Assembly: GCF_001593955.1 (NCBI RefSeq)
Contig: NZ_LTAZ01000004.1
Coordinates: 558,001-622,000, forward strand
Direction: 5' to 3'
Source of the DNA: Halalkalicoccus paucihalophilus
GTDB taxonomy: Archaea; Halobacteriota; Halobacteria; Halobacteriales; Halalkalicoccaceae
DNA: 64,000 bases
The notes below the pieces were generated by a model. It saw only the letters and a list, made by a program, of their open reading frames with translations, ran no database searches and was not told the origin of the DNA. Positions within the stretch are counted from its first letter, which is position 1; each line of letters opens with the position of its first letter. Positions 19,680-60,914 of the stretch are shown in pieces. Position numbers and translations under genes: made by a program.

Positions 19680-19893
19680 GAAAGCCCTCTCTCAGCCTTG
19701 GCAGGCTTCGGTCGCCCTTTTGATGTCGCTACGAGAGGCCGCGAAGCGGTCTCTCGGCGTCCGGAAATCGAAGATTTCCGAAGACCTCCAGGCCCGCCAG
19801 TTGACGCAGCCGTCCGACCGGACGGCTGCTCTTTAGTAGCCCAGCCCTTTCCCGTTCGTTTCGCGGCTATCGGCCGCGAAGCGAGGCCACCAC
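19680..19893. repeat. Dispersed hairpin-rich repeat, copy A
   Basis: The copy opens with GAAAGCCCTC and ends near GGCCACCAC. Between lie AGCC-TTGGCA-GGCT (19694-19707), a TCGCCCTTTT block, and hairpins at 19733-19755 (10 bp including one G-T, loop GAA), 19763-19779 (7 bp, loop GAA), 19806-19829 (10 bp, loop GACC) and 19860-19880 (8 bp, loop TATCG). The conserved CCAGCCCTTTCCC block lies between the last two. It fills the space between the convergent IscA-like and acetyltransferase genes. Copies B and C share the order of blocks with altered stems. Confidence 0.8.
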
Positions 19894-19912
19894 ACCGCTC
19901 CCCATTACTGGG

Positions 19913-20719
19913 CTACCTGTTTTGTTCGAACCACTCGGTAGCGAAATCCACCATCTCACGCTGATCCATTAGCTTCGCCGTCGCCGCGCCGACCGTTCCC
20001 GCCGTGAGGCCGACCTCTCGTTCGAAGTCGGTCCCGCAGTCCGCGAAATCGTCCGTCCTCGTCTCGATGTCCTCGTACTCGACGTCGACTCGTTTCCCGT
20101 CTCGAACCACCGGCGCGCTGTTTCTCACGGTTTCGTTCGGGACCGCGGTCCGGTACTCACCCAGATGAAGCGAGGTGTTTTTCTCGTGGCCGACGCCGAG
20201 AAGCAGGATTTTCCCGTCTCGTTCGTAGAGCCGTGCGAGCGGTGATTCCTCGCCGAGTCCGTAATCGAACCCGTGGTCGGCGATGATCGCCCGTGCCTCG
20301 CTCCCGCACGCCGCGAAGGAAACCGTCGGGTGTCGGCTGCGGATCGCGTCCGGGTAGTTTCGGAGACACTCGGGAACTGTGCCCACGCCACGCGTCGGCG
20401 TGACCGCGGGTCGGTACGGCGGTCGCTCCTCTCGGACCGTCTCGATCCAGTCTTCGGGGACCGGGGGTTCGGACCAGCCCGCCGGGTTCGTATACTGGCC
20501 GGTGTGGGTCGGCACGACGACAGTGCCCGCCTCGCCAACAGCCTCGTAGAGGGCGTCACAGACCGCCTGCGGGCCGCCACAGGTCCACCCGAGCGCACTC
20601 AGCGAGGCGTGGACGAGCAGGGGTTCGCCCGGTCTAATCCCGAGCGCCCGAAACTCGGCGGTCAGCGAGGCGCTCGTGTTCGGCTCTCCGACCCGTTCAA
20701 TGGCCTGGCGTTCGCTCAT
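19913..20719 (-). CDS. AAC(3)-family (YokD-type) N-acetyltransferase
   Basis: 268 aa. Conserved family blocks are LLVHASLSALGW, VVPTHTGQYTNPAGW, RGVGTVPECLRNYP and SRHPTVSFAACG, the last bearing the catalytic His region. The family uses acetyl-CoA and includes aminoglycoside 3-N-acetyltransferases. In archaea most members have no known drug substrate, so antibiotic modification should not be assumed. It is a single gene, convergent with the IscA-like gene across repeat copy A. Confidence 0.88.
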   Translation of the reverse strand: MSERQAIERVGEPNTSASLTAEFRALGIRPGEPLLVHASLSALGWTCGGPQAVCDALYEAVGEAGTVVVPTHTGQYTNPAGWSEPPVPEDWIETVREERPPYRPAVTPTRGVGTVPECLRNYPDAIRSRHPTVSFAACGSEARAIIADHGFDYGLGEESPLARLYERDGKILLLGVGHEKNTSLHLGEYRTAVPNETVRNSAPVVRDGKRVDVEYEDIETRTDDFADCGTDFEREVGLTAGTVGAATAKLMDQREMVDFATEWFEQNR

Positions 20720-20776
20720 GTGACCTCCTCGCGGGTCGCGTACTTCAACGTCGACCGTAAAAATCGGCTCGGTGGC

Positions 20777-20977
20777 TCAGCCCTCGACTTCGAAGGCGAC
20801 TTCGAGGGTTGCCTGATACTCGGGTTCGTCGACGTTTTTGAGTTCGACGCCGAACTCCTCGACCTCCGCCCAGTAGACGTTCTCGAGGGTGTTCTGGGCG
20901 CGTGCGATCGCGTCATCTGCGGCGTCGTCGAAGCTCTCGGTGCTCGTCCCGATCAGGGTGACCTTCTTGAATACCAT
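20777..20977 (-). CDS. Dodecin (flavin-binding protein)
   Basis: 66 aa from the ATG at 20977 ([12 protein letters not shown]). The strand-helix-strand-strand pattern and the conserved W in [16 protein letters not shown] match archaeal dodecins, which form dodecamers that store and protect riboflavin or FMN. The GTG two codons upstream is less likely to be the start. It is a single gene 57 bases from the acetyltransferase start. Confidence 0.95.
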
Positions 20978-21270
20978 ATGCACCCGTACCTTCCCGCGGA
21001 ATCCACTTAACTCTCGGGCCGTCTCCCGCTAGGTGTCGTCCTCGTCGGCTCTGTTGACGGTGAGGGCGGCCTCGACCAGCGCCCGGTGGCCGCGTCGAAG
21101 GCGGTTCGGGCACGCCTACCGGGTGGCTTCGAGTTCGTGACCGATTCCTTCATCGGGGAGTACACGGAATTCCGTAGTAGCCGGTCGACAGCGGGATATC
21201 CGTCGGTTCGTCACGGGGTAAATGGGTGACGAAGCGGGGAGATTCGGTCCTCGGAGCGGGTTGTCGCACC
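20978..21270. other. 293-base intergenic stretch, no supported gene
   Basis: No start with a convincing promoter and no known family was found. On the minus strand, a short open stretch ending near 21030 reads RLRRGHRALVEAALTV and then an acidic tail. It has protein-like composition and could be the leftover C-terminus of a lost gene, but it is too short to assign. Confidence 0.4.
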
Positions 21271-22119
21271 TCAGGGACGCGAGCGAAACGTGGTCGTAAT
21301 CCTCGGCAGTGCTCCCGTTACTAACTCGCGCCAGCGATCGGCCCCGTGGACGCCAATCCAGTAGCTCGCGCTCGCGAGGCCGATGCCGGCGATCACATCG
21401 GTCAGCCAGTGGATCCCGAGGTACATTGTCGAGATCACGACGCTGGTCGCCAGTACCGCGGCGATGGCGAGCCAACGCGGGTAGGCCTCTCGGGTTCGCC
21501 ACGCGAAGAGCAATACCGTCACCGAGAGCGACGTGTGTAGCGAGGGAAAGACGTTCGTGGGTGTGTTGACCGCGCTCGTGAGCAGGCGTGAGGAGGGGTA
21601 GACGTCGTACATGAACTGTTCTGCGATGCCGAGGTTTCGCGGGCCGTAGGCCACGAACAGCAGGTAACAGACCAGCCCGATCGCGTAGTTCGCCGTGTAG
21701 GCGACCGTGAGCTCGTGAAGCGACCGTTGCTCGGAGAGCGCGAAGTACGCGAGCAACGGGAAAACGAGCAAGAAGACGTAGCCGTAGACGTACACCGCCG
21801 AGAAGTAGACGGTCAACTCCGTCGTCTGAAACGTCTGTACCCACGCGACGAACGCCCCTTCGAGCCGGTAGATCTGATCGGTGATCTCGAAACCGATCAG
21901 CCACGAGAGGCGCTGGGCGGTCCGGCGGGTGAGGCTGTTGATTACCAGCACGACGACCAGCAACCCGATCGCGGGGGCTGCAAGCCGGAGTCGCGTTCTG
22001 AGATCGGCCCTGAGTTCGCGCAATTGCCCCCGGTCGATACAGAGGATCGTCCCGAGCACGAGCAGGACGCTCACGACCGCGACGATCGACAACAGTACCG
22101 TTAGCAGTTCGAGGGCCAT
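21271..22119 (-). CDS. PAP2-superfamily membrane phosphatase/transferase
   Basis: 282 aa with about six membrane helices. The lipid phosphatase signatures are visible: FPSLHTSLS (motif 2, His) and GIHWLTDVIAG (motif 3, His and Asp). The layout is that of the PAP2_3 branch, which includes inositol phosphotransferases of lipid synthesis. It probably acts on a lipid phosphate in the membrane. The start lies three bases after the stop of the binding-protein gene, so the two are likely co-transcribed. Confidence 0.87.
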   Translation of the reverse strand: MALELLTVLLSIVAVVSVLLVLGTILCIDRGQLRELRADLRTRLRLAAPAIGLLVVVLVINSLTRRTAQRLSWLIGFEITDQIYRLEGAFVAWVQTFQTTELTVYFSAVYVYGYVFLLVFPLLAYFALSEQRSLHELTVAYTANYAIGLVCYLLFVAYGPRNLGIAEQFMYDVYPSSRLLTSAVNTPTNVFPSLHTSLSVTVLLFAWRTREAYPRWLAIAAVLATSVVISTMYLGIHWLTDVIAGIGLASASYWIGVHGADRWRELVTGALPRITTTFRSRP

Positions 22120-22122
22120 TCC

Positions 22123-23889
22123 TCAGCGCACGACCAGTTCTCCGGCCTCGTTGTATATATACCCTGCCTCGCGGAAGAGTTCGTGCGCCACCTCCGGTTC
22201 GACGGTTCCGGTCCCGTTCTCGCCGACGAAACCCGCCCCGTGGCCCGAGTGCCACTCGTCGCTCGGCCCACCGACCGCGATGGGACTGAACGCCGGGGTC
22301 GCGTGCCCCTCGAACGCCTCGGTCCGAAGGAACTCCCTATCGAGCAGCCGCGAGAGCGCGCGTCTGAACCGTGGGTTCGAGAGCGGTGCGTTGCGCCCGT
22401 TGAACCCGACGTGGTAGTACGCACTCGTCGGTTCGGTCGCGAGTTCGACCTCGCTTGCTTCCTCCGCTCGCCTGATCTCGGTCGGTGCCAGCGCGATCGC
22501 GCTGGCGTCGAGGTCGCCCGCTTGGACCCCCTCGACGATGTTCGCCTCGGAGGGCGAGTAGACGAAGACCAGCCGCTGGTACGGTGGCCCGCCGGCGAAC
22601 GCCGGCAACGACCCGTCCGACAGGTCGACGAGGAAGTGCTCGTCGTTGCGAACGAGTTCGAGGCGGGCGTCCGGCGTCGCCGCCTCGAACCGGAGCGGTC
22701 CCGAGCCGACGGGGTCCATGTTGTCGGCGACGAGCGCCTCGGTGACGTTGTCGAGGTCGAAGCCCGCGATCGAGGTGAGGCCGGTCCGCTCCTCCCAGAC
22801 GTGTCTCGGCAGGACCGGGACGGTGAGCGCTCGGAGACCGACCTCGCGGCTGGCGTCGATCGAGAACTCGAGCGTCCGATCGTCAATGGCCTCCACCGCC
22901 TCGACGAGCAAGCTTCGGGCGCGGAAACACGGGGCCGGAACGGTGGGGTTCTCGTCGGTGTAGGTCGTATCCCGGAGCAGTCGGTAGGTGAAGGCGACGT
23001 CGGCGGTGGTCAGGTTCTGCCCGTCGTGCCAGGAGAGCCCTTCGCGCAGTCGGACCCGCAGGCGGTCGTCGCCCCACGACCAGTTGTCCGCGAGCCACGG
23101 TTCGATCCCCCCGTCCACGTATCGGCCGATCGGGTCGTAGAGCAGCCCGGTGACGATCCAGCGATCGCGGTATTCGACGGCCAGCGGGTTCAGGTTGTGA
23201 GTAACCCGCCGGTTCATGGTCCCGAGACGGAGCGTATCGGCCGCGCGCGAACCGCGCCCGGCGGCGTTTCGTTCTTGGAGGCCGAGATAGCCGAGGGGGG
23301 ATTCGAGCGAGCGATAGCCCCACCCGAAGTACCGGTCGGTCCGGATGGCCCGTGATTCCTCGGGGTAGGCGACGACCGCTATCGGGGCTTCCTCACGGAC
23401 CGCCTCCACGAGGGCCGAGAGCGCCCCGCTTCGGGTCCCGTCGGTTGCCCGACGCTGGGTTTCGAGCGGGTCGTCCATTCCGGGGACATTCACGTAGCCG
23501 AACGGGTTCTGCCAGCCGGGCTCCTCGCTGAAGCGCGAGTGCAACAGTCCGTAGAGGTAGTCGGGGTCGTAGTGGCCGGGGTGCTGGCCGATGTAGAGGT
23601 CGAAATCCTGATTCAGGAGGACGTTCCGCCAGAGCTTTTCGGCCGTCACCGGCTGGAGGCCGACGTCGATACCGGCGGCAGCGAACGTTTCGGCGAGGTG
23701 ATGGGAGATCCGTACGGGAACGGGATCCTCGTCGGCCGGAAGAGTCATGATCGACACCGAGACCTGCTCCGGCGTGTCTCGGTCGACGGAGGCCTGAAAC
23801 CGGTTCAGACAGCCGGCACTCGCGGTAAGCGCGCCGGCCGCGCCCGAAAGGAGTGCGCGGCGGCCGATCGGTCCCGTCGGTACGGTCAC
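22123..23889 (-). CDS. ABC-type peptide/nickel-like substrate-binding lipoprotein (SBP_bac_5)
   Basis: 588 aa. The N-terminus GRRALLSGAAGALTASAGC is a Tat signal with a lipobox (Cys27), so the protein is exported and lipid-anchored. The body has the SBP_bac_5 fold, with a typical segment WSWGDDRLRVRLREGLSWHDG and ADVAFTYRLLRD. Family members bind oligopeptides, nickel or other solutes. No permease or ATPase genes are adjacent; the neighbour downstream is a PAP2 enzyme. The partner transporter must lie elsewhere, or the protein has another role. Confidence 0.87.
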   Translation of the reverse strand: MTVPTGPIGRRALLSGAAGALTASAGCLNRFQASVDRDTPEQVSVSIMTLPADEDPVPVRISHHLAETFAAAGIDVGLQPVTAEKLWRNVLLNQDFDLYIGQHPGHYDPDYLYGLLHSRFSEEPGWQNPFGYVNVPGMDDPLETQRRATDGTRSGALSALVEAVREEAPIAVVAYPEESRAIRTDRYFGWGYRSLESPLGYLGLQERNAAGRGSRAADTLRLGTMNRRVTHNLNPLAVEYRDRWIVTGLLYDPIGRYVDGGIEPWLADNWSWGDDRLRVRLREGLSWHDGQNLTTADVAFTYRLLRDTTYTDENPTVPAPCFRARSLLVEAVEAIDDRTLEFSIDASREVGLRALTVPVLPRHVWEERTGLTSIAGFDLDNVTEALVADNMDPVGSGPLRFEAATPDARLELVRNDEHFLVDLSDGSLPAFAGGPPYQRLVFVYSPSEANIVEGVQAGDLDASAIALAPTEIRRAEEASEVELATEPTSAYYHVGFNGRNAPLSNPRFRRALSRLLDREFLRTEAFEGHATPAFSPIAVGGPSDEWHSGHGAGFVGENGTGTVEPEVAHELFREAGYIYNEAGELVVR

Positions 23890-23938
23890 AATACGGGCAG
23901 TACGAGGGTCAGGAATATCAACGTTCCGTCATAGATCA

Positions 23939-24262
23939 CTACGCGCGCATCGACGGCGCGTGGAGTACGTCGTAGTCGGCGCCGTCCGTCACGGAGATGA
24001 CGGCCCACTCGTAGTCGGGTTTGAGGTCCGAGAGACGACGGACGAGCGATTCGGCCGCCTCACGATACGTGACGAAACACCGAAGCGAATCGGTGTCGGG
24101 ATCGGGAATCGATCCCTCACTCTCGTCGGCGGTTGCGGTTACGTGAACGACCTTCCACTCGCGCTCGGCGCGGAACTCGGTGCCGTCTCCCGACAGCGTG
24201 TAGCCGAGTTCGCTGAAGATCGATCGGGCCTGCTCGACGGGGGGTATGTTAACAGGTCCCAT
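23939..24262 (-). CDS. Conserved haloarchaeal protein (DUF7116-like)
   Basis: 107 aa from the ATG at 24262 (MGPVNIPPVEQARSIFSELGY). It is soluble and acidic, with strands WKVVHVTATA and RCFVTYREAA and a final strand YEWAVISVTDGADYDVL. I recognise it only as a conserved haloarchaeal family of unknown function. It is on the same strand as the DUF5816-like gene; their ends are 41 bases apart. Confidence 0.7.
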   Translation of the reverse strand: MGPVNIPPVEQARSIFSELGYTLSGDGTEFRAEREWKVVHVTATADESEGSIPDPDTDSLRCFVTYREAAESLVRRLSDLKPDYEWAVISVTDGADYDVLHAPSMRA

Positions 24263-24303
24263 CCAAGAGGCACTACGCCGACCACATTCATAAATCTTCA
24301 CCC

Positions 24304-24540
24304 TCACTCGTGGGCCGCATCCCACTCGGTCGGTTTACGCTGGTTCGGGCAGTCGTTACAGACGATCCGGCCCATCGTGTCCATCGCCGTGTTCGGACTC
24401 CCGCAGTTCCCACAGAGATACCCCCATCGATCACGGCGGTTCGTCGTCCGGTAAACGACATAAAACGGGCCGTCCGAGCCACGCTCGGCCTCGTCGCGCG
24501 CGACGTACAGCGTCTCTCCGCTGGCCGACAGTCGATCCAT
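24304..24540 (-). CDS. Small zinc-ribbon protein (DUF5816-like)
   Basis: 78 aa. The motif LCGNCGSPNTAMDTMGRIVC-x-DC supplies four cysteines in two CxxC knuckles, which should bind zinc. The N-terminus contains VARDEAERGSDGPFYVVYR. It belongs to a small conserved haloarchaeal family of unknown function. It probably shares a transcript with the downstream small gene. Confidence 0.78.
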   Translation of the reverse strand: MDRLSASGETLYVARDEAERGSDGPFYVVYRTTNRRDRWGYLCGNCGSPNTAMDTMGRIVCNDCPNQRKPTEWDAAHE

Positions 24541-24673
24541 ACGTTCCTTCCGGTGGCGATCGGCTTGAGGGTTATCCTAAACGGTCCGAACTCTCGTCTA
24601 TCAGATAATTACATTTATTTTCTTCCTACAATAATATCGTAGAATCTGACATTCACTCTACTAGTATCATGAA

Positions 24674-24706
24674 TTAATAAATTGACAATAACGGTGATGT
24701 ATTGTC
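24674..24706 (+). promoter_or_regulatory. Promoter and inverted-repeat operator of the polysaccharide deacetylase gene
   Basis: An AT-rich leader (24590-24706) ends in a BoxA-like TTAATAAAT (24674-24682). It is followed by the inverted repeat GACAATA (24684-24690), a 9-base spacer, and TATTGTC (24700-24706). The repeat lies between BoxA and the ATG at 24717, the usual place for a repressor to block initiation. Confidence 0.45.
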
Positions 24707-24716
24707 GAAAGCACGT

Positions 24717-25796
24717 ATGGAGAAACCCTCGCCCTCCAGACGGGCCTTCCTCGGACTGAGCGCAGCGTCCCTCGCCGGGCTCTCGGGCTGTCTCGGCAGC
24801 CTCTCGACGGAGACCGACGAGACACCCGGTGGGAACACCAGCGATACCGATCCCAACGACGGGAACGAAACGGATAGCGATAACGAGACTCACGAGGAAC
24901 CCACGGAACCTCCCGGCCTGCCTGAAGGGGGAGCAGTGATGTTCGTCTACGACGACGGTCCGATGGAGGACTACACCCAGGCGTTGCCCGCTCATCGGAC
25001 GTTCGACGCGCCCGCGACCGTCGGGATCGTCAGCGAATGGATCGGCCGCGAGGACTACCAATCGAGCGGCTGTATGGATATCGAACACCTCGAGGAGCTA
25101 GTGGATGCGGGCTGGGAGATCGCTTCGCACACCAGCGAGCACACCACCCTCGGGACGTTCGAACTCGTTGAGGATGCCGCCCCGGGTGCCGAGCGGATCT
25201 ACCCCGAGGAGATCCGCCACGGCTACCACCGCGGCAAGACCATCGAACTCACCTCCGACGAGCACACGTTCACCCGGGCGGTCGCCGATTATGGAAGCGA
25301 CGATACCGGCGGCTACATCGCGGTCGACGAGCCCATCGAGGAGGCCTGCCTGGCGGGCGAGACGATCATCCGGTATCCCGCCGAGAAGATCCGTGAAGCG
25401 ATGGGTGACTCGAAACACGCCCTCGAAGGTATGGGTTTCGAGGTCGAGACGCTGCTGGCGCCCTACGACAACTTCGACGACTACTCGCGGAAGTTCGCCA
25501 GCGAGTACTACTCGGGGGTGGCCAACGCCCGCCACGGCAAACGGGTAAACGATCCCGAGGGTTTCGATCCCTACCGGACCCGACGCGACTACTTCATCGA
25601 GTACACGGACCGCGAATCGGTCAAACGGGACCTCGACGAGATCGCCGAGCGCGGGGCGCTGGGCGTCCTCGGCGCGCACACGTTCAAAGAGGAGGTCACC
25701 GAGGACCGCATCCGCGAGACGCTCTCGTGGGTCGACGAACGCGAGATCACCGTTATGACCCTGCGCGAGGCCATCGCGCGGTACGCCGATCGATAA
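24717..25796 (+). CDS. Exported polysaccharide deacetylase (NodB-type) lipoprotein
   Basis: 359 aa from the ATG at 24717; an upstream TTG is less likely. The signal SRRAFLGLSAASLAGLSGC gives a Tat lipoprotein, followed by a Thr/Asp/Asn-rich linker (about 30-65). The catalytic domain begins MFVYDDGP with the metal-binding Asp pair and has SHTSEHTT as the His motif. It should remove acetyl or similar groups from a surface or extracellular glycan. Its promoter region carries an inverted repeat. Confidence 0.85.
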   Translation: MEKPSPSRRAFLGLSAASLAGLSGCLGSLSTETDETPGGNTSDTDPNDGNETDSDNETHEEPTEPPGLPEGGAVMFVYDDGPMEDYTQALPAHRTFDAPATVGIVSEWIGREDYQSSGCMDIEHLEELVDAGWEIASHTSEHTTLGTFELVEDAAPGAERIYPEEIRHGYHRGKTIELTSDEHTFTRAVADYGSDDTGGYIAVDEPIEEACLAGETIIRYPAEKIREAMGDSKHALEGMGFEVETLLAPYDNFDDYSRKFASEYYSGVANARHGKRVNDPEGFDPYRTRRDYFIEYTDRESVKRDLDEIAERGALGVLGAHTFKEEVTEDRIRETLSWVDEREITVMTLREAIARYADR

Positions 25797-25913
25797 TCAG
25801 GGTCGATAACGACGCTGTTGACACCGCTCGCCCGCTTCGTTCATCGGGGGATTCCTCCATCGGGGGCGAACTAAAGGGAAAGGTTGACACCGCTGCCGGG
25901 CGATCTGTAGAGT
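25797..25913. repeat. Short direct repeats between the deacetylase and uspA genes
   Basis: GTTGACACCGCT occurs at 25817-25828 and again at 25883-25894. A second pair, CATCGGGGG, is at 25842-25850 and 25858-25866. The stretch holds no gene. The repeats may be regulatory sites for the UspA gene or the trace of a small duplication. Confidence 0.5.
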
Positions 25914-34208: not shown

Positions 34209-34215
34209 GCGAGAG

Positions 34216-44372: not shown

Positions 44373-45224
44373 CTAAAACGACATCGCTCCGTCGTCGGTG
44401 ATGATCCCGTCGAGCAGTCGAACCGGCGTCGCGTCGTAGAGCGGGTTCTCGATGGCGAAGTCCTCGACCGGTTCGAGCATCACCTCACTGGCCGGGCGGT
44501 ACTCGTTCTCGAAGGCGAACCCGCTGTCGATGAGCTTCGCACCGGACCCGGTGACGTACATCGGGACGTCCAGATCCGCCGCCGTCGCCGCGATCGGATA
44601 GGTGCCGATGCGGTTGTAGAGCGTATCGCTCACCAGACAGTCCATCCCCATCAGCACGCAGTCACACTCCCCGAGGTAGGTGCCAGCGGCGCTGTCGACG
44701 ATCAGCGTCGGTTCGACACCGTCGATCGATCCGAGCTTTCGGGCGGTCTTCCGGCCCGCGAGTCGGGGTCGGGCCTCGGTGACGTACACCGACAGCGAGG
44801 CGCCGCCGTCGACCGCCCGCTCGATCGCCGCGTTCACCGTCGAAGAGTAGTCGTGGGTCAGGATCGTCATCCCGTCCTCGATGTACTCGGCGGCGTGGGC
44901 TGCGGCCCGTTTCTTTCCCCCCTCGATCCGTTCGACGACCGTCTCGATCGCCGCCGTGAGCGCGGCCTTCGCCTCCTCGACGTCCTCGGGATCGGCTTCC
45001 TTGATCTCGCGGGTAATCGTCCGTTGGACGTTGAACAGCGAGGCGTGCGAGGGGTTCGCCCGTCGGAGCACGGAACTGTTTCGCTCGACGTCTCTGACGA
45101 ACTCCTCGACCGTCGCGTACTCGCGGTCGTTCAATTCGGAGAGCGCACGGGCGGCCTTGACAGCCACGACCGAGGAGCTGTGTGTCTGCATCTCCTCGAT
45201 CTCCGCGACCGTCTCGTCGATCAT
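44373..45224 (-). CDS. eIF-2B alpha-like protein / ribose-1,5-bisphosphate isomerase
   Basis: 283 aa from the ATG at 45224 (MIDETVAEIEEMQTHSSSVV). Longer frames upstream run into repeat copy B and are rejected. The family core is clear: ILTHDYSSTVNAAI, YVTEARPRLAGRKTA, VLMGMDCLVSD, YNRIGTYPIA and YVTGSGAKL. In archaea this family includes ribose-1,5-bisphosphate isomerase of the nucleotide-degrading pentose bisphosphate pathway; a role in translation initiation is the older label. Which applies here is not shown. Confidence 0.85.
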   Translation of the reverse strand: MIDETVAEIEEMQTHSSSVVAVKAARALSELNDREYATVEEFVRDVERNSSVLRRANPSHASLFNVQRTITREIKEADPEDVEEAKAALTAAIETVVERIEGGKKRAAAHAAEYIEDGMTILTHDYSSTVNAAIERAVDGGASLSVYVTEARPRLAGRKTARKLGSIDGVEPTLIVDSAAGTYLGECDCVLMGMDCLVSDTLYNRIGTYPIAATAADLDVPMYVTGSGAKLIDSGFAFENEYRPASEVMLEPVEDFAIENPLYDATPVRLLDGIITDDGAMSF

Positions 45225-45713
45225 ACCCGACCCTCTCGGTCTCGGGGCAAAGACCTTCCGACGAAAGCCCTCGGCGTGCTCAAAAACGCCGTCGGCGTTT
45301 TTGGCATCTCGGAGCGGCTTCGCCGCTCCGACGAGTCGTCGAAGTGGCTCTGCCACTTCGAGATCGGGAGAATCTTCGATTCTCCAGCGACACCTTGGCA
45401 GGTGCGCCTCGCCCTTTTCATGTCCCAAGAAAAGACCGCGAAGCGGTCTTTCTGGGCTGAGCGGCGACGAAGTCGCCGCGAGGTCCGCGGGAACTGCGTT
45501 CTCGCGAGATCCCGAAAACCGGAGGTTTTCGGAGACAGCCAGGACCGCATCGCAGCCGTCCGACCGGACGGCTGCTCTCAGGGACCAGCCCTTCCCCGCC
45601 CCGCGAACACGGTCTCCGGAGGGGCGACCGCGTTCGCGCCGGCCGCCGCACCGCAGACCGCCTCCACAGCCACGGCACAGCAGACCTAAACCCCGACGGA
45701 CCCTACGGACGGT
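45225..45713. other. 489-base divergent intergenic region filled by repeat copy B
   Basis: The start codons of the eIF2B-like gene (minus) and the zinc-ribbon gene (plus) face away from each other across this stretch. Apart from repeat copy B (45263-45649) only about 38 and 64 bases remain on the two sides. Any promoters must lie in these margins or inside the repeat. Reading frames crossing it are artefacts of the repeat. Confidence 0.7.
45263..45649. repeat. Dispersed hairpin-rich repeat, copy B (longest)
   Basis: The copy opens with GAAAGCCCTC. An extra cassette of four triloop hairpins follows: 45282-45302 (loop GTC), 45310-45330 (TTC), 45341-45359 (TCT) and 45367-45385 (TTC), with arms of 8-9 bp. 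Then come CACC-TTGGCA-GGTG, TCGCCCTTTT and the 88-base core 45426-45513, which is shared with copy C except for three bases. Hairpins at 45513-45531 (loop GGA) and 45552-45575 (loop GACC), the CCAGCCCTTCCCCGCC block and the pair CGCGAAC/GTTCGCG (45602-45638) complete it. Confidence 0.85.
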
Positions 45714-52831: not shown

Positions 52832-52866
52832 AACAGTTAAGGGGATCGGGAATGACAGTCGCGGGT

Positions 52867-53733: not shown

Positions 53734-53763
53734 TCGTCAGCGGAGGCGATTTTTCACAGTATT

Positions 53764-53802: not shown

Positions 53803-53806
53803 ATTC

Positions 53807-55408
53807 ATGTCCCTCAGCGGCGAGTTCCACCACGTCACTCGGATCGCACGAACCGAACTCCTGCGGGGGTGGCGCTCGACGGTCGATCGCTGGACGCTGG
53901 TCGCGGTCGGACTCGGGCTCTGTTTGTTCGCCGCGTGGACGCTGTTCATCGGGGTCATCGGCTACGTCATGGGGTCGTTCCTCCCGACCGGTCAAACGCT
54001 GGCGATCACTGAATCGATGGCTGGTCAGGCGGTCGGATGGACCCTCTTTCTCGCGGGGATGATCGCCTTTCAGGTCGTCGAACGCCGCGCCCGGATCGAC
54101 AACGAGGACCTCCTGTTCACGACGGTATCGCCCCGAACCGTCCTCCTGGGACTCCTGAGCGCGGAGTTCGCGCGCGAACTGTTCCTGTTCGGCCCGGCCG
54201 TGCTCGTCGGCGCAACGGGGTTCGCCATCGGGGCGGGCGCGCCGACGCTGGTGCCCGTCGCCGCCCTCGTAGCGCTTCCGTTGCTCGTGTTCGTCGTGTT
54301 GCTCGGGCATACCGCCGGGATCGCAACGAAACTCGCCGCCGAGCGCATGAGCGGGTTCGATCGGCTCCGAACCGTTCTCGGCGTCCTCGCGGGCGTTCTC
54401 GTCGGGAGTTTGCCCATGTTGTTCTTCGGCGGGGCCGAATGGCTCGGCCTCTCGATCGATCTCGATTCCCTGCTCGCGATCGTGCCGATCGCCGCGTATG
54501 TCGATCTACTGGCGGTGGGAACGCCGCTTGTCGCGTCGGTCGGGCTCGATACGGTCGTGGCGGTCGCGCTCGTCCTCGGTGCGCTTCCGGTCTTGATCGC
54601 CCTCGATTATCGACTGTCGGTGGCGCTCTGGTTCGGCGCCTCGGACTCGACCGGGGCGGTACGGACGAGTGCGCACACACCGCCGGCGTGGCTGCCACGC
54701 GGGTCGACCGGCTGGCTCGTCTGGTGGTACTGGCTCCGGGGACTGCGTGCGCCCTCGCGCTTCACGCACCTCATCTACTACTCCTTTCCCCTCTTCTGGC
54801 TCGTCTTCGATGCGATTCGCGATCCGTCGACCCTGCCATCAGCGCTCTCGACTGCCCTCGTCGTTCTGGGTGTGGCCTTCGCCGGCGCGACCTTCGGGTT
54901 GAACCCGCTGGGCGACGAACGAAAGGCGCTTCCGGCAGTGCTTACGACCCCTGCAGGGGACCGGTTCGTCCGCGCTCGGGTCCTCGCCGGCCTCCCGTGG
55001 ATCACCGTTTCACTCGCCGGTGTCGCCCTCGGTGCCGTAATCGGGCGATTCGATCCGCTGAACGCGTCGTTTCTCGCCATCGTCGTCGGGTCGCTCGGAG
55101 CCCTGAGTGCGACCGTCGCACCCGTCTTCGGGATCGCACTCCCCCGGTTCGAGCCGATCGCCGCGACGAAAAACGAGACGATCACGCCGAGTCTGGGAGC
55201 GGTGATCGGTCACGTGGCTGTCGTCGGGATCGCCGGTGTCGGCCTCGCCGTCTTCGGACCGCCGATCCTCGGCGCGCTTTCTGGATCGACACCGACGAAC
55301 GCGGTTCGACTCGGACTCGTCTGTGTAGTCGCGGCCGCGGTCGTCGGAACGAGCGTCTGGTCGTATCGCCACGCCACGAGTCGATTTCGGACGGCGAGGG
55401 TCGGGTAA
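53807..55408 (+). CDS. Large polytopic membrane protein, possibly ABC-2-type permease
   Basis: 533 aa with about 14 hydrophobic helices. The N-terminus has HVTRIARTELLRGWRSTVDRW, an amphipathic segment seen in ABC-2-like permeases. The middle contains WLVWWYWLRGLRAPSRFTH and GDERKALPAVLTTPAGDRF. No ATPase gene is adjacent. It may be the membrane part of an exporter; the function is not assigned. Its promoter carries two palindromes. Confidence 0.7.
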   Translation: MSLSGEFHHVTRIARTELLRGWRSTVDRWTLVAVGLGLCLFAAWTLFIGVIGYVMGSFLPTGQTLAITESMAGQAVGWTLFLAGMIAFQVVERRARIDNEDLLFTTVSPRTVLLGLLSAEFARELFLFGPAVLVGATGFAIGAGAPTLVPVAALVALPLLVFVVLLGHTAGIATKLAAERMSGFDRLRTVLGVLAGVLVGSLPMLFFGGAEWLGLSIDLDSLLAIVPIAAYVDLLAVGTPLVASVGLDTVVAVALVLGALPVLIALDYRLSVALWFGASDSTGAVRTSAHTPPAWLPRGSTGWLVWWYWLRGLRAPSRFTHLIYYSFPLFWLVFDAIRDPSTLPSALSTALVVLGVAFAGATFGLNPLGDERKALPAVLTTPAGDRFVRARVLAGLPWITVSLAGVALGAVIGRFDPLNASFLAIVVGSLGALSATVAPVFGIALPRFEPIAATKNETITPSLGAVIGHVAVVGIAGVGLAVFGPPILGALSGSTPTNAVRLGLVCVVAAAVVGTSVWSYRHATSRFRTARVG

Positions 55409-55424
55409 AACGGAGTTGGGGCGA

Positions 55425-57695
55425 CTACTGGAACGTCCGGCTGACGTTGTCCTCTTCGAGTTCCGCTCCGCCCCGGTCGAAGCGCTGTTCGATCTCCTCG
55501 TAGCGCTCGCGGGTTTCCGCGGTGACGCTCGGGTTGACCTCCCCGAGGGCCTGCTCGAAGTGCTCGCGGCTCACTCGGACGTTGCCGACGCTGTCGAGTG
55601 CCTCCTCGGGGCCGACGCTGTTGATGAACTCGCGGGTCGCGGCCATCGAGGCCTCCCGACAGACTGCTTCGATGTCCGCGCCGACGTAGCCCTCCGTCTC
55701 CTCGGCCAGTTCGTCGAGGTCCACGTCGTCCGCAAGCGGCTTCTCGCGGGTGTGGACCGCGAAGATCGCCCGGCGGGCCTCCTCGTCGGGCACCGGCACG
55801 TGGACGTGTCGGTCGAGCCGACCGGGGCGCAACAGCGCCGAGTCGATCAGGTCCGGACGGTTGGTGGTCGCGATCACGACCACGTCCTCGAGTTCCTCGA
55901 GGCCGTCGAGCTCCGTGAGGAGTTGGGAGACCATGCGCTCGCCGACGCCCGAGTCACCCGACTGGCGGCCCCGCTCGCCCGCGACCGAGTCGATCTCGTC
56001 GAAGAAGATCACCGTCGGGGCGTTCTCGCGGGCCTTGCTGAACACCTCGCGGACTCCTTTCTCGGACTCGCCGACGAACTTGTTGAGCAGTTCGGGGCCC
56101 TTGATCGAGATGAAGTTCGACTCGGCCTCGTTGGCGACGGCCTTCGCCAAGAGTGTCTTCCCAGTTCCGGGCGGGCCATACAGCAGGACGCCCTTCGCGG
56201 CGTCCAGATCCATCGCCTCGAACACCTCGGGATATTCGAGGGGCCACTGGATCGTCTCGCGCAGGCGCTCTTTGGTGTCCTCGAGACCGCCGACCTGCTC
56301 CCAACTCGTGTCGGGAACCTCGACGAACACCTCACGCAGCGCCGAGGGCTCGATACCCTTGCGCGCCGTCTTGAAGTCCTCCGCGGTCACCTGCAGGGCG
56401 TCGAGGACGTCGGCGTCGATCTCTTGGCTCTCGAGGTCGAGTTCGGGTCGAATTCTCCTGAGGGCGTTCATTGCCGCCTCGCGCGTGAGGGTGGCGATGT
56501 CCGCGCCGACGAACCCGTGGGTGTTCTCGGCGTATCGTTCGAGGTCGATCCCGTCGGCAAGCGGCATGCCTCGGGTGTGGACCTGCAGGATCTCCTGGCG
56601 TCCCTCTTTGTCGGGGACGCCGATCTCGATCTCGCGGTCGAAGCGACCGCCACGCCGGAGTGCGGGGTCGATCGCGTCGACGCGATTGGTCGCGCCGATG
56701 ACGATGACCTGTCCGCGCTCCTCCAAGCCGTCCATCAGGCTGAGCAGCTGGGCGACGACGCGGCGCTCGACGTCGCCGGAGGTCTCGCCCCGTTTGGGCG
56801 CGATCGAGTCGAGTTCGTCGATGAAGACGATCGCGGGGGCGTTCTCTTCGGCCTCCTCGAACACCTCACGCAGGCGTTCCTCGCTCTCGCCGTAGTACTT
56901 CGACATGATCTCCGGGCCGGAGATCGTATCGAAGTGGGCGTCGATCTCGTTGGCGACGGCCTTCGCCATCAGCGTCTTGCCGGTGCCCGGCGGGCCGTGC
57001 AGCAGCACGCCTTTCGGCGGCTCGATGCCGAGCTGCTGGAACAGTTCGGGGTGACGCATCGGCAGCTCGATCATCTCCCGGACCTGTTCGAGCTCACGGT
57101 CCAGCCCGCCGATGTCCTCGTAGGTGACGTCGGGCGAGCCCTCGGAAGCTCCACCGCCCCCTTCGTGGATCTGTTCTGCGGGCTTCTCGCTGATCGTGAT
57201 CTCCGTGCTGTCTGTGACGACGACCGTTCCCGACGGGCTCGTGTCGGCGATCTTCAGCGGGATCTCGCGGCCGCCGCCGGACATCGGGCCGATTCCGAAG
57301 CCCACGCGGACGGTCTGACCCTGCGTGATCGCCTGCCCGCTGAGTCTATCCCGAACGAGTGGGCCGATGTTGCCCTGGATCCGGAGACTCTGGGGGGTGG
57401 CGATGGTGATCTCGGATGCGGGCTTGACCTCGGCCTTCTCGACGCTCGCCCGGTCGTCGATCCCGACGTTCGCCTCCTGTCGGAGCCGGCCGTCGATACG
57501 GATCACGCCGCGGCCGTCGTCCTCGGGGTAGCCCGGCCAGACCCGAGCCACGGCACGGTCCCCGTCCTGTCCCCCGATGAGGATGTAATCCCCGTTCTCG
57601 AGGTCCAGCTCCTGCATCGAGGCGCGGTCGACGGCCGCGAGCCCGCGACCCGCGTCCTTCTGTTTCAACGGTTTGACGGTGAGTTTCGTGCTCAT
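55425..57695 (-). CDS. cdc48: AAA+ ATPase Cdc48/p97 (VAT)
   Basis: 756 aa. An N domain (about 1-190, double-psi barrel and clam) precedes two AAA domains. D1 carries Walker [15 protein letters not shown], Walker [14 protein letters not shown] and the [10 protein letters not shown] region. D2 carries [14 protein letters not shown] and [14 protein letters not shown]. It is a hexameric unfoldase acting with the proteasome in protein quality control. The ATG overlaps the stop of the small upstream gene (57692-57695). A short acidic C-terminal tail follows D2. Confidence 0.97.
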
Positions 57696-57940
57696 GCCTC
57701 TACCTCGATAGTGAGAACGCCGTTTCTGATAAACGCTCGTGCCTCCTCGCTGGGAAGGTCGAACTCCTCCTGGCGTTCGCCCTCCTCCGTCTCGATGACG
57801 ACGATCGCGGTCCCGTCGATAACGTCGACGGTCGCGTCGGTCGTCTCGCCACCGAGATCGATCGCGATCACGGACTCGTCGTCGTACTCGTAGCGACGCG
57901 CGAAGACCTCACGCCCGTCCGTCCTGTGTTGTGGCGTCAT
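57692..57940 (-). CDS. Small protein co-transcribed with cdc48 (DUF7127/Hsp20-like)
   Basis: 82 aa. It is a beta-rich, acidic protein whose strands [18 protein letters not shown] and GVLTIEVEA resemble the alpha-crystallin core and the GVL of Hsp20. It is too short for a full small heat-shock protein. Its stop overlaps the cdc48 ATG, and both are driven from a promoter with an inverted repeat. A role with Cdc48 in protein quality control is inferred from coupling. Confidence 0.75.
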
Positions 57941-57946
57941 GATGGT

Positions 57947-57985
57947 ACTAACTATAGGTTAGTCACAAGAATATATAAATATTTT
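57947..57985 (-). promoter_or_regulatory. Promoter and operator of the cdc48 operon
   Basis: On the minus strand a strong TATA stretch (57968-57985, AATATATAAATATTTTCC on the plus strand) stands 30-40 bases upstream of the ATG at 57940. A perfect inverted repeat ACTAAC-TATAG-GTTAGT (57947-57963) covers the expected start of transcription. This is the layout of a repressor operator at a heat-shock-type gene. Confidence 0.65.
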
Positions 57986-58081
57986 CCCAGCAGTAGCATC
58001 CACGGGGGGCGGTCACTCGTAAACGGTTGTATTGTGGTTCAGGGTAATGAGCTTTATCAGACGAGGGATCGAACCGGTCGT

Positions 58082-58858
58082 ATGGAAACCGTCACACACC
58101 ACGGTCGGGAGACCGCCTACGAACGCCACGACCGCGGTGGGCAAGGAGCCCCAATGGTCTGCGTTCACGGAAGCGGGGGCTCGCGTGCCGTCTGGAAGTC
58201 ACAAGCGCGGTTGGCGGACGAACGGCCCGTAATCGCGCTCGACCTCTCGGGCCACGGCGACAGCGAGGACACCGACGCCGACGCGGGGTTCAGTACGCTG
58301 TCGGCGTACGCCGACGACGTGCTTGCGGTCGCGCGAGAAACCGATTCACGGGTCCTCGTGGGCAACTCGCTGGGCGGGGCCGTCGCCCTCCACATCGCCC
58401 TCTACCGGGAGTTCGAACTCGACGCGCTCGTTCTCACGGGTACCGGCGCGCGACTCGCGGTTCTGGAGGACCTGCTCGCGTGGCTCGACGAGGACTTCGA
58501 GCGCGCCCTCGACTTTCTCCACGAGCCCGAACACCTCTTTTACGACGCCGACACCGACCTCGTCGCGCTCTCCCGGGAGGCGATGGAGGGCTGTGGGCGC
58601 GCGGTGGTCGAGCGCGATTTCAGGAGCTGTCACACGTTTGACGTCCGGGGGGACCTCGACCGGGTCGAGGTTCCGGCGCTCGCGGTCTGTGGCGAACACG
58701 ACCGGCTGACTCCCCCCGACTACCACGAGTATCTCGCGCGCGAGATGCCCGACTGCGGGTTCGAAACGATCGACGGGGCTGCCCATCTGGCGATGCTCGA
58801 ACGTCCCCGGGAGTTCAACGAAACTGTCTCTCGATTTCTCGGGCAGAACAGTCAGTAG
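58082..58858 (+). CDS. Alpha/beta hydrolase (Ser nucleophile)
   Basis: 258 aa from the ATG at 58082 (METVTHHGRETAYERHDRGG). The oxyanion loop VCVHGSGGS, nucleophile elbow VGNSLGGAVAL (Ser), Asp in CGEHDRLTP and His in DGAAHLAML make a full triad. It is an esterase- or lipase-like enzyme; the substrate is unknown. The upstream frame to 57926 is not used. It overlaps the convergent panB gene by seven bases. Confidence 0.9.
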   Translation: METVTHHGRETAYERHDRGGQGAPMVCVHGSGGSRAVWKSQARLADERPVIALDLSGHGDSEDTDADAGFSTLSAYADDVLAVARETDSRVLVGNSLGGAVALHIALYREFELDALVLTGTGARLAVLEDLLAWLDEDFERALDFLHEPEHLFYDADTDLVALSREAMEGCGRAVVERDFRSCHTFDVRGDLDRVEVPALAVCGEHDRLTPPDYHEYLAREMPDCGFETIDGAAHLAMLERPREFNETVSRFLGQNSQ

Positions 58859-59658
58859 ACGTCCTTCACTTCCTCGACGGTCTCGGAGTGCTCCTCGGCG
58901 GGGAACTCACCGCCCTCGACGGCCTCCTTGTACGCGCTTACGGCTGAGCTGATCTCGCTACGCACGTCCCCGAACTGCTTCGAGAAGGGCGGGGACCACT
59001 CGCCGAGTCCGATGACGTCGGTGATCACGAGGACTTGACCGTCGCAATCCGATCCTGCGCCGATCCCGATCGTCGGGATCGAGAGTTCGTCCGTTACCTG
59101 TGCCGCGAGGTTCGCCGGGACGTGTTCGAGCACGAGCGAGAAGGCGCCGGCCTCCTCGTGTGCACGTGCGAGGTCGGCGATCTCCATTGCCGTGTCCTTC
59201 GTCGTTCCCTGCCGGCCGTAGCCCCCGAGCTGGTTCACACGTTGTGGGGTGAGCCCGAGGTGGGCCATCACGGGGATCCCGAGTTCGACGAGGCGCTCGG
59301 TCAGCGAAACGGTATGCGGGCCGCTTTCGAGCTTGATCGCGTCCGCGCCCGCCTGCTTGATCATTCGGCCGGCGTTCTCGATGCTGTCGGCCTCGTCGAC
59401 CCCGAAGGAGAGAAACGGCATGTCCGCGACCACGAGCGCCTCGTCCGTCACACGGGAGACGGCGGCGGTACGGCTCGCGACTTCCTCGACCGTCACGGGA
59501 AGCGTCGAGTCGTGGCCTAACACGGCGTTACCCATGCTGTCGCCGACGAGGATCACGTCAATCCCCGCGCCCTCGACCAGTTCGGCGGTCGGGGCGTCGT
59601 AAGCGGTCAGCATCGTTATCGTCTCGTCGGCCGCGCGAATGTCCGCGACAGTCGGCAT
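58852..59658 (-). CDS. panB: 3-methyl-2-oxobutanoate hydroxymethyltransferase PanB
   Basis: 268 aa. LVGDSMGNAVLGHDST (metal-binding Asp), VVADMPFLSF, AIKLESG, VMAHLGLTPQ and TIGIGAG match PanB. It adds a C1 unit from methylenetetrahydrofolate or its archaeal analogue to ketoisovalerate on the way to pantothenate and CoA. It is a single gene. Confidence 0.96.
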   Translation of the reverse strand: MPTVADIRAADETITMLTAYDAPTAELVEGAGIDVILVGDSMGNAVLGHDSTLPVTVEEVASRTAAVSRVTDEALVVADMPFLSFGVDEADSIENAGRMIKQAGADAIKLESGPHTVSLTERLVELGIPVMAHLGLTPQRVNQLGGYGRQGTTKDTAMEIADLARAHEEAGAFSLVLEHVPANLAAQVTDELSIPTIGIGAGSDCDGQVLVITDVIGLGEWSPPFSKQFGDVRSEISSAVSAYKEAVEGGEFPAEEHSETVEEVKDVY

Positions 59659-59749
59659 GGGTGAGAGTTATCGCCGCCCGGCCTAAACGCCCGCGGTTCG
59701 TGTGGCTCGAATCCACAGGCTTACGACCGCCCCAACCGTCTCCCCGACC

Positions 59750-59989
59750 GTGCCTACCCCCGTCGAGCGCCACGATCCCGAGGGAGTCGACTACGGCTGG
59801 GTCATGCAGGTCACGTTCGTCCTCACCATCGTCGTCGGCGCGCCCGTGGTCGCACTGCTCTCTACTGCGACCGTGCTGCCGACGTGGGGCGACCGCCTCG
59901 AGTTCACGATCCGAGTGGGATCGGTCGTCTGGATCGCGATCGGCCTCACCACGTTCTTCTACGCGCGAAAACGGGTATCGCGGGCGTAG
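59750..59989 (+). CDS. Small two-helix membrane protein (DUF5822-like)
   Basis: 79 aa from the GTG at 59750 (PTPVERHDPEGVDYGWVMQ); a start at 59702 would add 16 residues outside the family pattern. Two hydrophobic helices (about 18-40 and 52-72) with a basic end KRVSRA. It is a conserved haloarchaeal family of unknown function. It is convergent with the HAD gene (6-base gap). Confidence 0.7.
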   Translation: MPTPVERHDPEGVDYGWVMQVTFVLTIVVGAPVVALLSTATVLPTWGDRLEFTIRVGSVVWIAIGLTTFFYARKRVSRA

Positions 59990-59995
59990 CGCGAC

Positions 59996-60547
59996 TCAGA
60001 CAAGGTCCCGAACGTACAGAAACCCCGTTCCGGCGCGCTCGGCCGTGATCGCATCCCTGTCGGTGTCGCCGACGAACATCGTCCGTTCGAGTGGTACTTC
60101 GAGCGCTTCTGCGGCCGCTTTGAGCGGCCCGGGGTCCGGTTTGGGCTTCGCGACCGAGTCCCGGCCGATCACCGCGTCGACGTGTTCCTCCAACCCGTGG
60201 ATATCGAGCGCTATTCGGCAGGCTTCCTCGCAGTTGAGCGAGCAGACCGCGACCGGACGCGTCTCCGCGACGACCTGCTCTGCGAGGGGCAACCGTTCTG
60301 AGTACCGTGCCCCCTCGCGTTCGTACTCGGAGATGATCTCCTCGACTCGACCGCGCAGGTCCACCCGCGAGGCGCGTTCGAGCAGGTCCCAGAGGTTGCC
60401 GTCGGCGTCGATCCCGCGCTCGGCGAACGTTCCCACGACCGTGGTCGCGACCTCGTCCCAGTCGACCGCCAGATCGACGAGGGTGCCGTCGAGGTCGTAG
60501 ACGATCGCCTCCCAGCCGTCGTCGATCCAACGTAGGCCGTCAGTCAT
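59996..60547 (-). CDS. HAD-superfamily hydrolase (phosphoglycolate phosphatase-like)
   Basis: 183 aa from the ATG at 60547. HAD motif I IVYDLDGTLVDL (nucleophile Asp and acid Asp), motif II VCSLNCEE, Lys in AKPKPDPGPLKAAAEAL (motif III) and VGDTDRDAITAERAG (motif IV) are all present. It is a small phosphatase of unknown substrate. Repeat copy C lies 41 bases upstream of its start. Confidence 0.9.
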   Translation of the reverse strand: MTDGLRWIDDGWEAIVYDLDGTLVDLAVDWDEVATTVVGTFAERGIDADGNLWDLLERASRVDLRGRVEEIISEYEREGARYSERLPLAEQVVAETRPVAVCSLNCEEACRIALDIHGLEEHVDAVIGRDSVAKPKPDPGPLKAAAEALEVPLERTMFVGDTDRDAITAERAGTGFLYVRDLV

Positions 60548-60914
60548 ACCGGGTGGTAGGTGATGAGGGGGAAAAATAGCTTGCCCACGAAAGTCCTCGG
60601 CGTTCGTTGGCACTCGCGCCTCGCCCTTTTCGGTTCTCAAGAAAAGACCGCTACGCGGTCTTTCTGGGCTGAGCGGCGACGAAGTCGCCGCGAGGTCCGC
60701 GGGAACTGCGTTCCCGCGAGATCCCAGAAATCTCCGATTTCTGAGGACCGCCAGGCTCCGCCGAGTCGCGGCACGCGACCGCGTGCCGCTCTTAGGAACG
60801 CCAGCCCTTCCCCGCCCCCGCTCACGCGGGCGGCGCTGTTGCCGCCCACGTTCGCGCCGGCCACCACAGCCGTGACAGCATCCGCACCGAAACGCTATCG
60901 AACGTACGGCACCG
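60548..60914. other. 367-base intergenic region holding repeat copy C
   Basis: It lies between the start of the HAD gene and the 3' end of the acyl-CoA dehydrogenase gene, both on the minus strand. Besides copy C (60589-60867) there are only 41 and 47 bases of flank, with no supported gene. Confidence 0.7.
60589..60867. repeat. Dispersed hairpin-rich repeat, copy C
   Basis: The copy opens with GAAAGTCCTC, then TTGGCA, CTCGCGCCTCGCCCTTTT and the 88-base core 60638-60725, which is identical to copy B at 85 positions. Hairpins at 60726-60742 (AGAAATC arms, loop TCC) and 60768-60789 (9 bp, loop GACC), the CCAGCCCTTCCCCGCC block and GGGCGGC/GCCGCCC follow. The GACC loop is kept while the stem is rewritten relative to copies A and B. 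Confidence 0.85.

Follow-up and report, generated by a model that had tools for sequence, protein, structure and literature searches.

The three window copies and the fold they share

The window analysed here is a stretch of 64,000 nucleotides (nt) from the haloarchaeon Halalkalicoccus paucihalophilus, and it holds three copies (A, B, and C) of a hairpin-rich intergenic element. They belong to a dispersed family with a covarying fold, the left end of which is tightly placed at gene boundaries. An earlier interpretation made from the letters alone (the sequence-only reading) had located the three copies and given an ordered set of blocks common to them, and a sequence check confirmed both. The left-end block GAAAGYCCTC has exact matches in the window solely at 19680, 45263, and 60589, and the block CCAGCCCTTYCCC solely at 19841, 45585, and 60801. 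The gene contexts also differ as described: A lies between convergent genes, B between divergent genes, and C between two minus-strand genes (Table 1). Copies B and C are 38 and 41 nt, respectively, from the start codons of their left genes. The folding z-scores of A, B, and C are -5.3, -9.5, and -6.8, and no shuffled sequence folds as well. Copies B and C share an 88-base stretch, and the reported identity of 85/88 was reproduced (84/88 if the start is shifted one base to the right). Its proposed status as a core was not, since the stretch is part of an optional domain that is absent in compact copies. The Rfam search that had been suggested gave no match at the gathering score in the window. 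The palindrome GAAATC-NNN-GATTTC was found in the window only within copies A (19764-19778) and C (60727-60741); among copies its stem is often retained and its three-base loop differs.

Table 1. Positions in the window of the three copies, their parts, and the neighbouring genes
Feature	Position	Strand	Remark
Copy A, whole element	19680..19893	+	GAAAG to GGCCACCAC
Copy A, left module	19680..19721	+	P0 5' arm GAAAG 19680-19684, P1 19690-19711, TCGCCCTTTT 19712-19721
Copy A, optional hairpin domain	19728..19785	+	contains GAAATCGAAGATTTC at 19764-19778
Copy A, P2 hairpin	19806..19829	+	
Copy A, linker CCAGCCCTTTCCC and P3	19841..19884	+	P3 of the short type
Copy B, whole element	45263..45649	+	
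Copy B, 114-nt multi-hairpin insert	45277..45390	+	within 5' arm of P1
Copy B, TCGCCCTTTT block	45409..45418	+	3' arm of P0
Copy B, piece of optional domain	45426..45514	+	near-identical to copy C
Copy B, P2 hairpin	45552..45575	+	
Copy B, linker CCAGCCCTTCCCC, P3, right end	45585..45649	+	
Copy C, whole element	60589..60867	+	
Copy C, left module	60589..60630	+	P0 5' arm, P1 60599-60620, TCGCCCTTTT 60621-60630
Copy C, piece of optional domain	60638..60726	+	near-identical to copy B
Copy C, P2 hairpin	60768..60789	+	
Copy C, linker CCAGCCCTTCCCC, P3, right end	60801..60867	+	
Gene left of A: IscA/HesB-type protein	19316..19678	+	TIGR00049 above cut-off; stop codon 1 base from element
Gene right of A, 268 amino acids	19913..20719	-	convergent
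Gene left of B: ribose-1,5-bisphosphate isomerase-like	44373..45224	-	first 160 amino acids scanned, below cut-off
Gene right of B, 123 amino acids	45714..46085	+	divergent; without NCBIfam match
Gene left of C: HAD-type hydrolase	59996..60547	-	first 160 amino acids scanned, below cut-off
Gene right of C: acyl-CoA dehydrogenase-like	60915..62033	-	first 160 amino acids scanned, below cut-off

From left to right, the element consists of GAAAGCCCTC, P1, TCGCCCTTT(T), CATGTCC, CCAGG, P2, CCAGCCCTTCCCC, P3, GGCCACCGC, and a C/A-rich tail. P1 is a hairpin of 9 bp with a loop that is mostly TGGC, and P0 is formed by GAAAG pairing with CTTT(N)C. The core comprises P0/P1, CCAGG, P2, CCAGCCCTTCCCC, and P3, and many copies contain an optional branched domain of extra hairpins between CATGTCC and CCAGG. 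Most of the placed copies with both ends are ~100-390 nt long, which is too short for a transposase. The two ends are not inverted copies of each other, so that terminal inverted repeats are absent, and palindromes (P1 and P3) lie near both ends.

The fold of P0, P1, P2, and P3 shows base changes on both sides of its pairs. In an alignment of 12 of the 16 copies then known in the own genome, two-sided changes were found at 20 of 26 pairs and in 73 cells as compared with 24.5 after shuffling, and none of 500 shuffles was as high. P1 in 24 left modules of many genera gave 74 such cells as compared with 26.1 after shuffling. P0 also covaries: the nine distinct modules that start with A carry TT (7) or TA (2) after CTTT, while among the 149 that start with G, 125 carry TC, GC, or CA and 3 carry TT. 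Three modules that start with T (L178, L179, L334; L denotes loci) do not fit P0, and this T belongs to the stop codon TAA. The P0 counts were made on the 161 distinct left modules at hand, with chance bacterial pattern hits and copies identical by descent included. The covariation is most simply read as selection for the fold. The option of a structured RNA raised by the sequence-only reading is thus supported as to conserved structure, including at one fixed locus described below. A pseudoknot between the P1 loop and CCAGG was considered and rejected, because CCAGG is near-invariant and is retained with loops other than TGGC (judged by eye in the alignment).

Several further features of the anatomy were observed. 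Small hairpin inserts lie within P1, after P1, or within P3 (L234, L201, L243, L190, L216), and one insert type, GGGACGC-GCGTCCC followed by a second hairpin, occurs at several joints in several genomes and resembles small palindrome-invading repeats. P1 and P3 of many copies contain a tandem mismatch with CTC(G) on both arms (GCTC facing GCTC); elsewhere GAAC pairs with GTTC. Left modules are in tandem at L200, L211, and L213 (family f1) and L255 (f4), where the joint CATNTCCAC is followed by GAAAG or AAAAG, and at L151 of Halapricum, the joint of which is similar but not identical.

Extent of the family and placement of its copies

When copy B was compared with its own genome by BLAST, 19 pieces were recovered. 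The covariance model R1, built from the 12 aligned copies, gave 24 matches at E <= 1; two are second pieces of one copy and one is doubtful (E 0.08), which leaves ~21 places. The family in the own genome thus exceeds chance. These copies sit on contigs C1, C3, C4, and C5. R1 matched 14 of 40 genomes scanned: the own genome, all six of the same genus (11-28 matches each), all three sister-genus genomes (1-3 each), and four of the 30 taken from other families. A short covariance model covering the left module, R2, matched at least 100 of 293 sampled genomes of the order and at least 39 of 87 genera; these counts are lower bounds, since 18 candidates were scored per genome.

In family f8, 20 genomes are found among the R2 matches listed, 19 with at least one match and one (G127) with at least two. 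By sequence identity f8 is Natrialbaceae: L161 (genome G016) is the same as L114 of Natrinema altunense, and L173 (G202) the same as L095 of Natronococcus jeotgali. Natrinema, Natronococcus, and Haloterrigena are all placed in Natrialbaceae in the NCBI taxonomy. A pattern scan of contigs from named genomes yielded 69 stretches, of which 30 were taken as haloarchaeal from their titles. It detected the element in Natrinema, Haloterrigena, Natronococcus, Halococcus, Halapricum, Halonotius, Halostella, Haloprofundus, Halobium, Halegenticoccus, and some metagenome-assembled genomes (MAGs). Three further stretches (L089, L108, L152; one from a MAG titled Euryarchaeota) matched R2 at E <= 3.2e-10. 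The remaining 36 were rejected as chance hits, with R2 E-values of 1.1e-5 or higher, although by the design of the scan all of them contain the search pattern. Five of the 30 (L088, L092, L093, L134, L146; Halonotius and one MAG) matched the full R1 weakly, at E 8e-4 to 0.2, and in Halonotius the recognisable parts are the left module and CCAGG only. No match to copy B or to one compact copy was obtained by blastn in a plasmid collection, nor to the compact copy in a phage collection. No earlier description of the family was found in the literature searched, the coverage of which mostly excludes subscription papers. Runs of N or long C/G runs were seen inside copies (L196 and L197 in G001, L121), and contig C1 of G002 has several copies close to its end; the hairpins seem to break sequencing or assembly, and copy counts in drafts may be low.

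Placement was determined by simple gene calling on 95 placed copies. The left end of 6 of 101 loci escaped the script's rule (L003, L054, L203, L223, L247, L261; dropped), and L050, which was misplaced, was dropped afterwards and also excluded from the motif, P1-turnover, P0, and gap counts. The left gene is on the same strand in 64 copies and on the opposite strand in 30. With a same-strand left gene, the element begins -2 to +4 nt from the stop codon in 56 of 64 copies, and with an opposite-strand left gene it lies 36-45 nt from the start codon in 24 of 30. The left end is thus tightly placed at gene boundaries, and the distance to the right gene is looser. The neighbours are oriented (+,+) in 32 copies, (+,-) in 32, (-,+) in 23, and (-,-) in 7. 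The exceptions include tandem copies (L200, L202, L237), a group of four loci in which an overlap of 16-22 nt was called (L193, L217, L224, L238), probable miscalled starts or ends (L052, L053, L207, L225, L239, L258), and L260, which is unaccounted for. A crude test against uniform placement in the free space gave a product of 10^-73 over 56 entries, which adds little beyond the counts because the entries had been pre-filtered for a tight gap and group members are not independent. The stretch between the start codon and the element reads as a bare promoter, which we take it to be from what is generally known of haloarchaeal B recognition element (BRE)/TATA promoters, and its outer edge abuts the element.

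A target-like motif that resembles CTNC lies 5-8 nt outside the left end: among 36 sites, position -8 is C in 22, position -7 is T in 29, and position -5 is C in 25. An exact TTC within -8 to -4 was found at 14 of the 36 sites as compared with a background of 4.6%. One copy was taken per site; L239 and L258 are miscalled and are really the sites of L043 and L035, so the 36 are not all separate.

Persistence of sites and the copy at the aCPSF1 stop codon

Twenty-one site groups comprising 81 loci link five genomes of the same genus; two of the groups are chains of several sites, and four loci are unshared (L003, L192, L203, L207). The same-genus copies retrieved together with their flanks, which are part of the total, numbered 20 each in G001 and G002, 13 in G004, and 7 in G003, with none in G005 and G006. 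Most grouped site pairs match on both flanks, mainly at 75-93% identity. The left flanks (60 nt) of same-site pairs agree at 90%, whereas the P1 arms agree at 48% (35 pairs from different genomes) as compared with 41% among different sites (1498 pairs). Both arms were changed with pairing retained in 139 of 315 pair cells of same-site pairs. Among the copies listed, stems, P2 types, P3 types, and inserts reappear at other sites. The P1 identity as compared with the flank identity, together with the recurring modules, indicates that the sites persist and that the modules are mostly exchanged or rewritten with some site memory.

Sites B and C were followed in relatives. Site B is occupied in G002 and G006, carries a tandem left module in G001, and holds a decayed copy in G004. 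It is empty in G003, where 31 nt lie between the matched flanks, and in the sister-genus genomes G007, G008, and G009 (81-86 nt); in G005 the left flank alone was found. Judged by eye from the upstream protein, it is also occupied in family f6 (L246). The sequence-only reading had held that unrelated sequence of equal hairpin density at orthologous places would refute the family. This was not the case at site B, where the orthologous positions are taken up by the element, by a decayed or tandem version of it, or by a short gap. Site C is occupied in G002, broken in G005, and empty in G001 (51 nt), while G003, G004, and G006 gave single flanks only. In the sister-genus genomes G007 (L272) and G009 (L271), site C holds the right part without the left module. 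This right part consists of a CCAGCCCTCCCCCG linker, a P3-like hairpin, and the GGCC end, and may exist independently. The right sides of the empty-site junctions are too diverged for a target duplication to be read there.

Some sites are shared more widely. A copy at the end of the glutamate dehydrogenase gene (gdhA) is shared by f1, f6, and f7, of which only the f7 gene at L252 was scanned and fell below the equivalog cut-offs; one at the end of gyrB is shared by f1 (scanned) and f6 (by eye); one at the ileS promoter by f1 (both genera) and f7; and one at the end of the aCPSF1 gene by f1, f6, f7, and f8. It is likely that these sites descend from a common ancestor with much loss; repeated insertion at the same favoured place would also be compatible with the sharing.

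The aCPSF1 site was analysed further. The own-genus protein matches TIGR03675 with 980 bits (cut-off 580), and its C-terminal 160 amino acids are 77-88% identical to the f8 genes. In f8, all nine loci of the order scan and all nine loci from named genomes carry the copy at the stop codon of this one gene; three pairs among them have the same sequence, and Natrinema hispanicum DSM 18328 has two such loci on different contigs (L091, L117). An alignment of 10 of the 14 Natrialbaceae sequences, from which three with the optional domain and one with a broken right end were left out, showed two-sided changes at 16 of 35 pairs, and none of 500 shuffles was as high. This covariation occurs with few or no sister copies per genome as far as R2 detects them. 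Of 58 genomes in which the site was read, it was occupied in 9 by a strict rule and in 14 by a looser one (f8 9/30, f1 3/3, f6 1/3, f7 1/3, others 0/19). One empty site (L322) holds a remnant. G127 and G196 have R2 matches, yet their aCPSF1 sites are empty (L328, L333), and the matches lie elsewhere or are due to chance. A run of at least three T lies within 120 nt at all 14 occupied sites, at 12 of them 33-45 nt past the stop, which is partly built in because the occupancy rule requires CGCCYTTT. At least four T were found at 6 of the 14 (0.8 after shuffling). The empty sites are enriched in native T-runs, with at least four T in 21 of 44 (9.4 after shuffling) and at least five in 10 of 44 (3.0 after shuffling).

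Competing readings and the closest known systems

The firmest new results are the strictness of the placement, the turnover of stems at sites that stay fixed, and the copy at aCPSF1. We favour, at slightly less than an even chance, the reading that the copies form an old dispersed family of folded intergenic elements, which inserted in the manner of palindrome-associated transposable elements (PATEs) and has been kept as a two-way transcription stop or insulator at gene ends and promoters. It builds on observations of the fold, of the tight left-end placement, of sites held in common, and of sites that are empty or decayed; termination itself would follow from the letters of the left module. 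The module resembles a terminator in that the stop codon is followed, after ~10 nt, by a hairpin and then, after six nt, by T3-4, often with a C, and in nearly all placed copies P1 is followed by TCGCCCTTT(T) with the T-run within 10 nt. In Haloferax volcanii, according to the part of PMC7237163 available, intergenic 3' ends have a T stretch with the end at C, hairpins lie up to 10 nt upstream of 503 ends, and an inserted T5C stopped 95% of transcripts as compared with 59% for a coding-region hairpin motif. Read from the opposite side, the module border ends in CTTTC, and leftward transcripts may stop before they reach the promoter of the neighbour. Archaeal promoters are capable of firing in both directions (available part of PMC6640164). 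The sequence-only reading had held that a simple terminator does not fit all three window copies. This objection is weakened, since P0/P1, preceded by an A-run and followed by a T-run, could halt transcripts that arrive from either direction, which would be compatible with every gene arrangement seen.

In the proposed sequence of events, copies would once have spread by insertion at CTNC-like motifs, and would have been retained where they came to lie against a stop codon or immediately outside a promoter. The left module (A-run, hairpin, T-run) would end transcripts coming from the left and shield the neighbour from those coming from the right. The letters of the stems might be replaced when copies exchange sequence or when one arm is copied from the other, with complementarity preserved. 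The aCPSF1 copy may let a general archaeal termination factor tune its own 3' end. In the available part of PMC7515710, aCPSF1 triggers termination genome-wide and an upstream hairpin is not strictly needed in archaeal termination. A further claim, namely that the family is a portable archaeal punctuation cassette with two-way terminators at boundaries, a link to aCPSF1, stems renewed by arm or sister copying, and sites fixed across genera and families, appears rather unlikely.

Several points weigh against the punctuation reading. The two-way stop has been deduced from base composition only. The T-run is short and paired in P0, and runs of five or more T were found at none of the 14 occupied aCPSF1 sites but at 10 of the 44 empty ones. 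The site is empty in 44 of 58 genomes, which indicates that the element is dispensable there, and the decayed and empty copies are equally consistent with a neutral element. The turnover of P1 is incomplete, with identical arms in 3 of 35 same-site pairs as compared with 1.0% of the 1498 different-site pairs. Two-sided changes can also be produced by arm-to-arm template switching without selection, and covariation is therefore not taken to prove function. The punctuation reading also leaves P2 and P3 unexplained.

The main rival, which we consider possible but doubtful, takes the family to be nothing more than a selfish, non-autonomous, single-strand transposon like the PATEs, mobilised in trans by an enzyme of the IS200/IS605 type or by some other one, and its placement to reflect only where insertions were tolerated. 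Mobile ancestry, one of the options of the sequence-only reading, is supported by the dispersal of the copies, the empty or decayed sites, the tandem left modules, and the target-like motif. The high copy number in some genera only, the lack of the element at site B in G003 and in three genomes of the sister genus and at site C in G001, the remnant in G004, and the CTNC-like motif outside the left end all agree with selfishness, as do the PATEs of Haloquadratum and the inserts into their palindromes (available part of PMC3119063). On the other hand, many sites are stable over species and some over families, and the fold at the aCPSF1 site is retained in genomes with mostly one copy. The search for a partner enzyme also speaks against it. 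Y1 transposase gave seven matches in the own genome (some of them pieces of one gene) and one each in G004 and G006, with no match in the other seven genomes of the own family, among them G001, G002, and G003, two of which are the richest in copies. All 22 TnpB-type matches of the own genome lie on contigs C12, C13, and C17, whereas the repeats lie on C1, C3, C4, and C5. The own-genome (G000) contigs C12, C13, and C17 hold all 22 TnpB and 7 Y1 matches without a listed repeat copy and may be plasmids. The absence of a linked transposase noted earlier held for the IS200/IS605-type genes of the own genome, which lack these ends; the other transposase families were not searched. IS200/IS605 was rejected as a partner within the same limit, since the own-genome Y1 and TnpB loci gave no R1 or R2 match below E 0.2. 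In this end test, R1 and R2 were applied to the own-genome loci with L311 (overlapping L310) left out, and R1 also without the fragment L312; from other genomes, the test covered two Y1 loci (L305 and L306) with R2.

A role at mRNA 3' ends, where the element would stabilise the transcript or slow its translation like REP near stop codons, would explain the stable hairpins and the 56 of 64 copies that begin at the stop codon of a same-strand left gene. It is quite improbable in view of copy C, which runs antisense to the genes on both sides, and of the 30 copies with an opposite-strand left gene, of which 24 lie 36-45 nt from the start codon of that gene. That the copies are independent genes for small noncoding RNAs, with which the covarying multi-helix fold would agree, is very improbable: a stop codon or a start codon (36-45 nt away) at the left presumably leaves scant room for a promoter, so that an own promoter at the left end was rejected, and Rfam gave no match in the window. 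Least probable is a chromosome-organising or protein-binding DNA site, which would fit conserved dispersed sites and own-genome copies on C1, C3, C4, and C5 only, but 19 of the 20 matched f8 genomes have one match and one has two (lower bounds).

If the punctuation reading holds, insertion has spread ready-made boundary signals in archaea, some of which were kept across families, and this would link the arrangement of transcription units to mobile DNA. Even a merely selfish family would need an explanation for being placed so strictly against stop codons and promoters. The change of stems at fixed sites with 90% identical left flanks is a natural case for the study of hairpin rewriting, and the aCPSF1 copy makes self-tuning of a termination factor testable.

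By plan, the nearest known systems are the PATEs and SMRs of Haloquadratum, as described in the available part of PMC3119063. The PATEs of Haloquadratum walsbyi are likewise haloarchaeal, lack terminal inverted repeats and a transposase gene, have palindromes near their ends and a short target-like motif outside the end, and are invaded by other small hairpin inserts. The present family differs in that its sites are stable over species and some families, its ends lie against gene boundaries, and its stems change with pairing kept. It also has no IS605-type element with the same ends in the own genome; because the tie of PATEs to such ends is missing there, we class it as PATE-like and not as PATE. 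SMR-A is ~110 bp and inserts into palindromes, and the 114-nt insert in P1 of copy B may be likened to it by size and placement, the comparison being with the description rather than the sequence.

BOX of Streptococcus pneumoniae, in the available part of PMC3049150, is also a composite modular intergenic repeat with optional middle modules and may supply the stop codon of a gene. Its host is unrelated, the present family has as its optional part a branched domain whose joint is fixed, and only the modular plan was compared. REP/BIME sequences with RAYT (available part of PMC12306157) share extragenic palindromes, some near stop codons; REP of 20-40 bp carries GTAG/CGTC tags there, whereas the present copies begin GAAAG-like without such a tag. 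As for a RAYT (Y1) transposase, no match was found in G001, G002, and G003, two of which are the richest in copies, and the seven Y1 matches of the own genome lack these ends. Haloarchaeal T-stretch terminators, as far as PMC7237163 was available, share the T stretch ending at C and sometimes an upstream hairpin. They are short local signals, whereas the present element is a dispersed multi-helix family with shorter T-runs (3-4 T).

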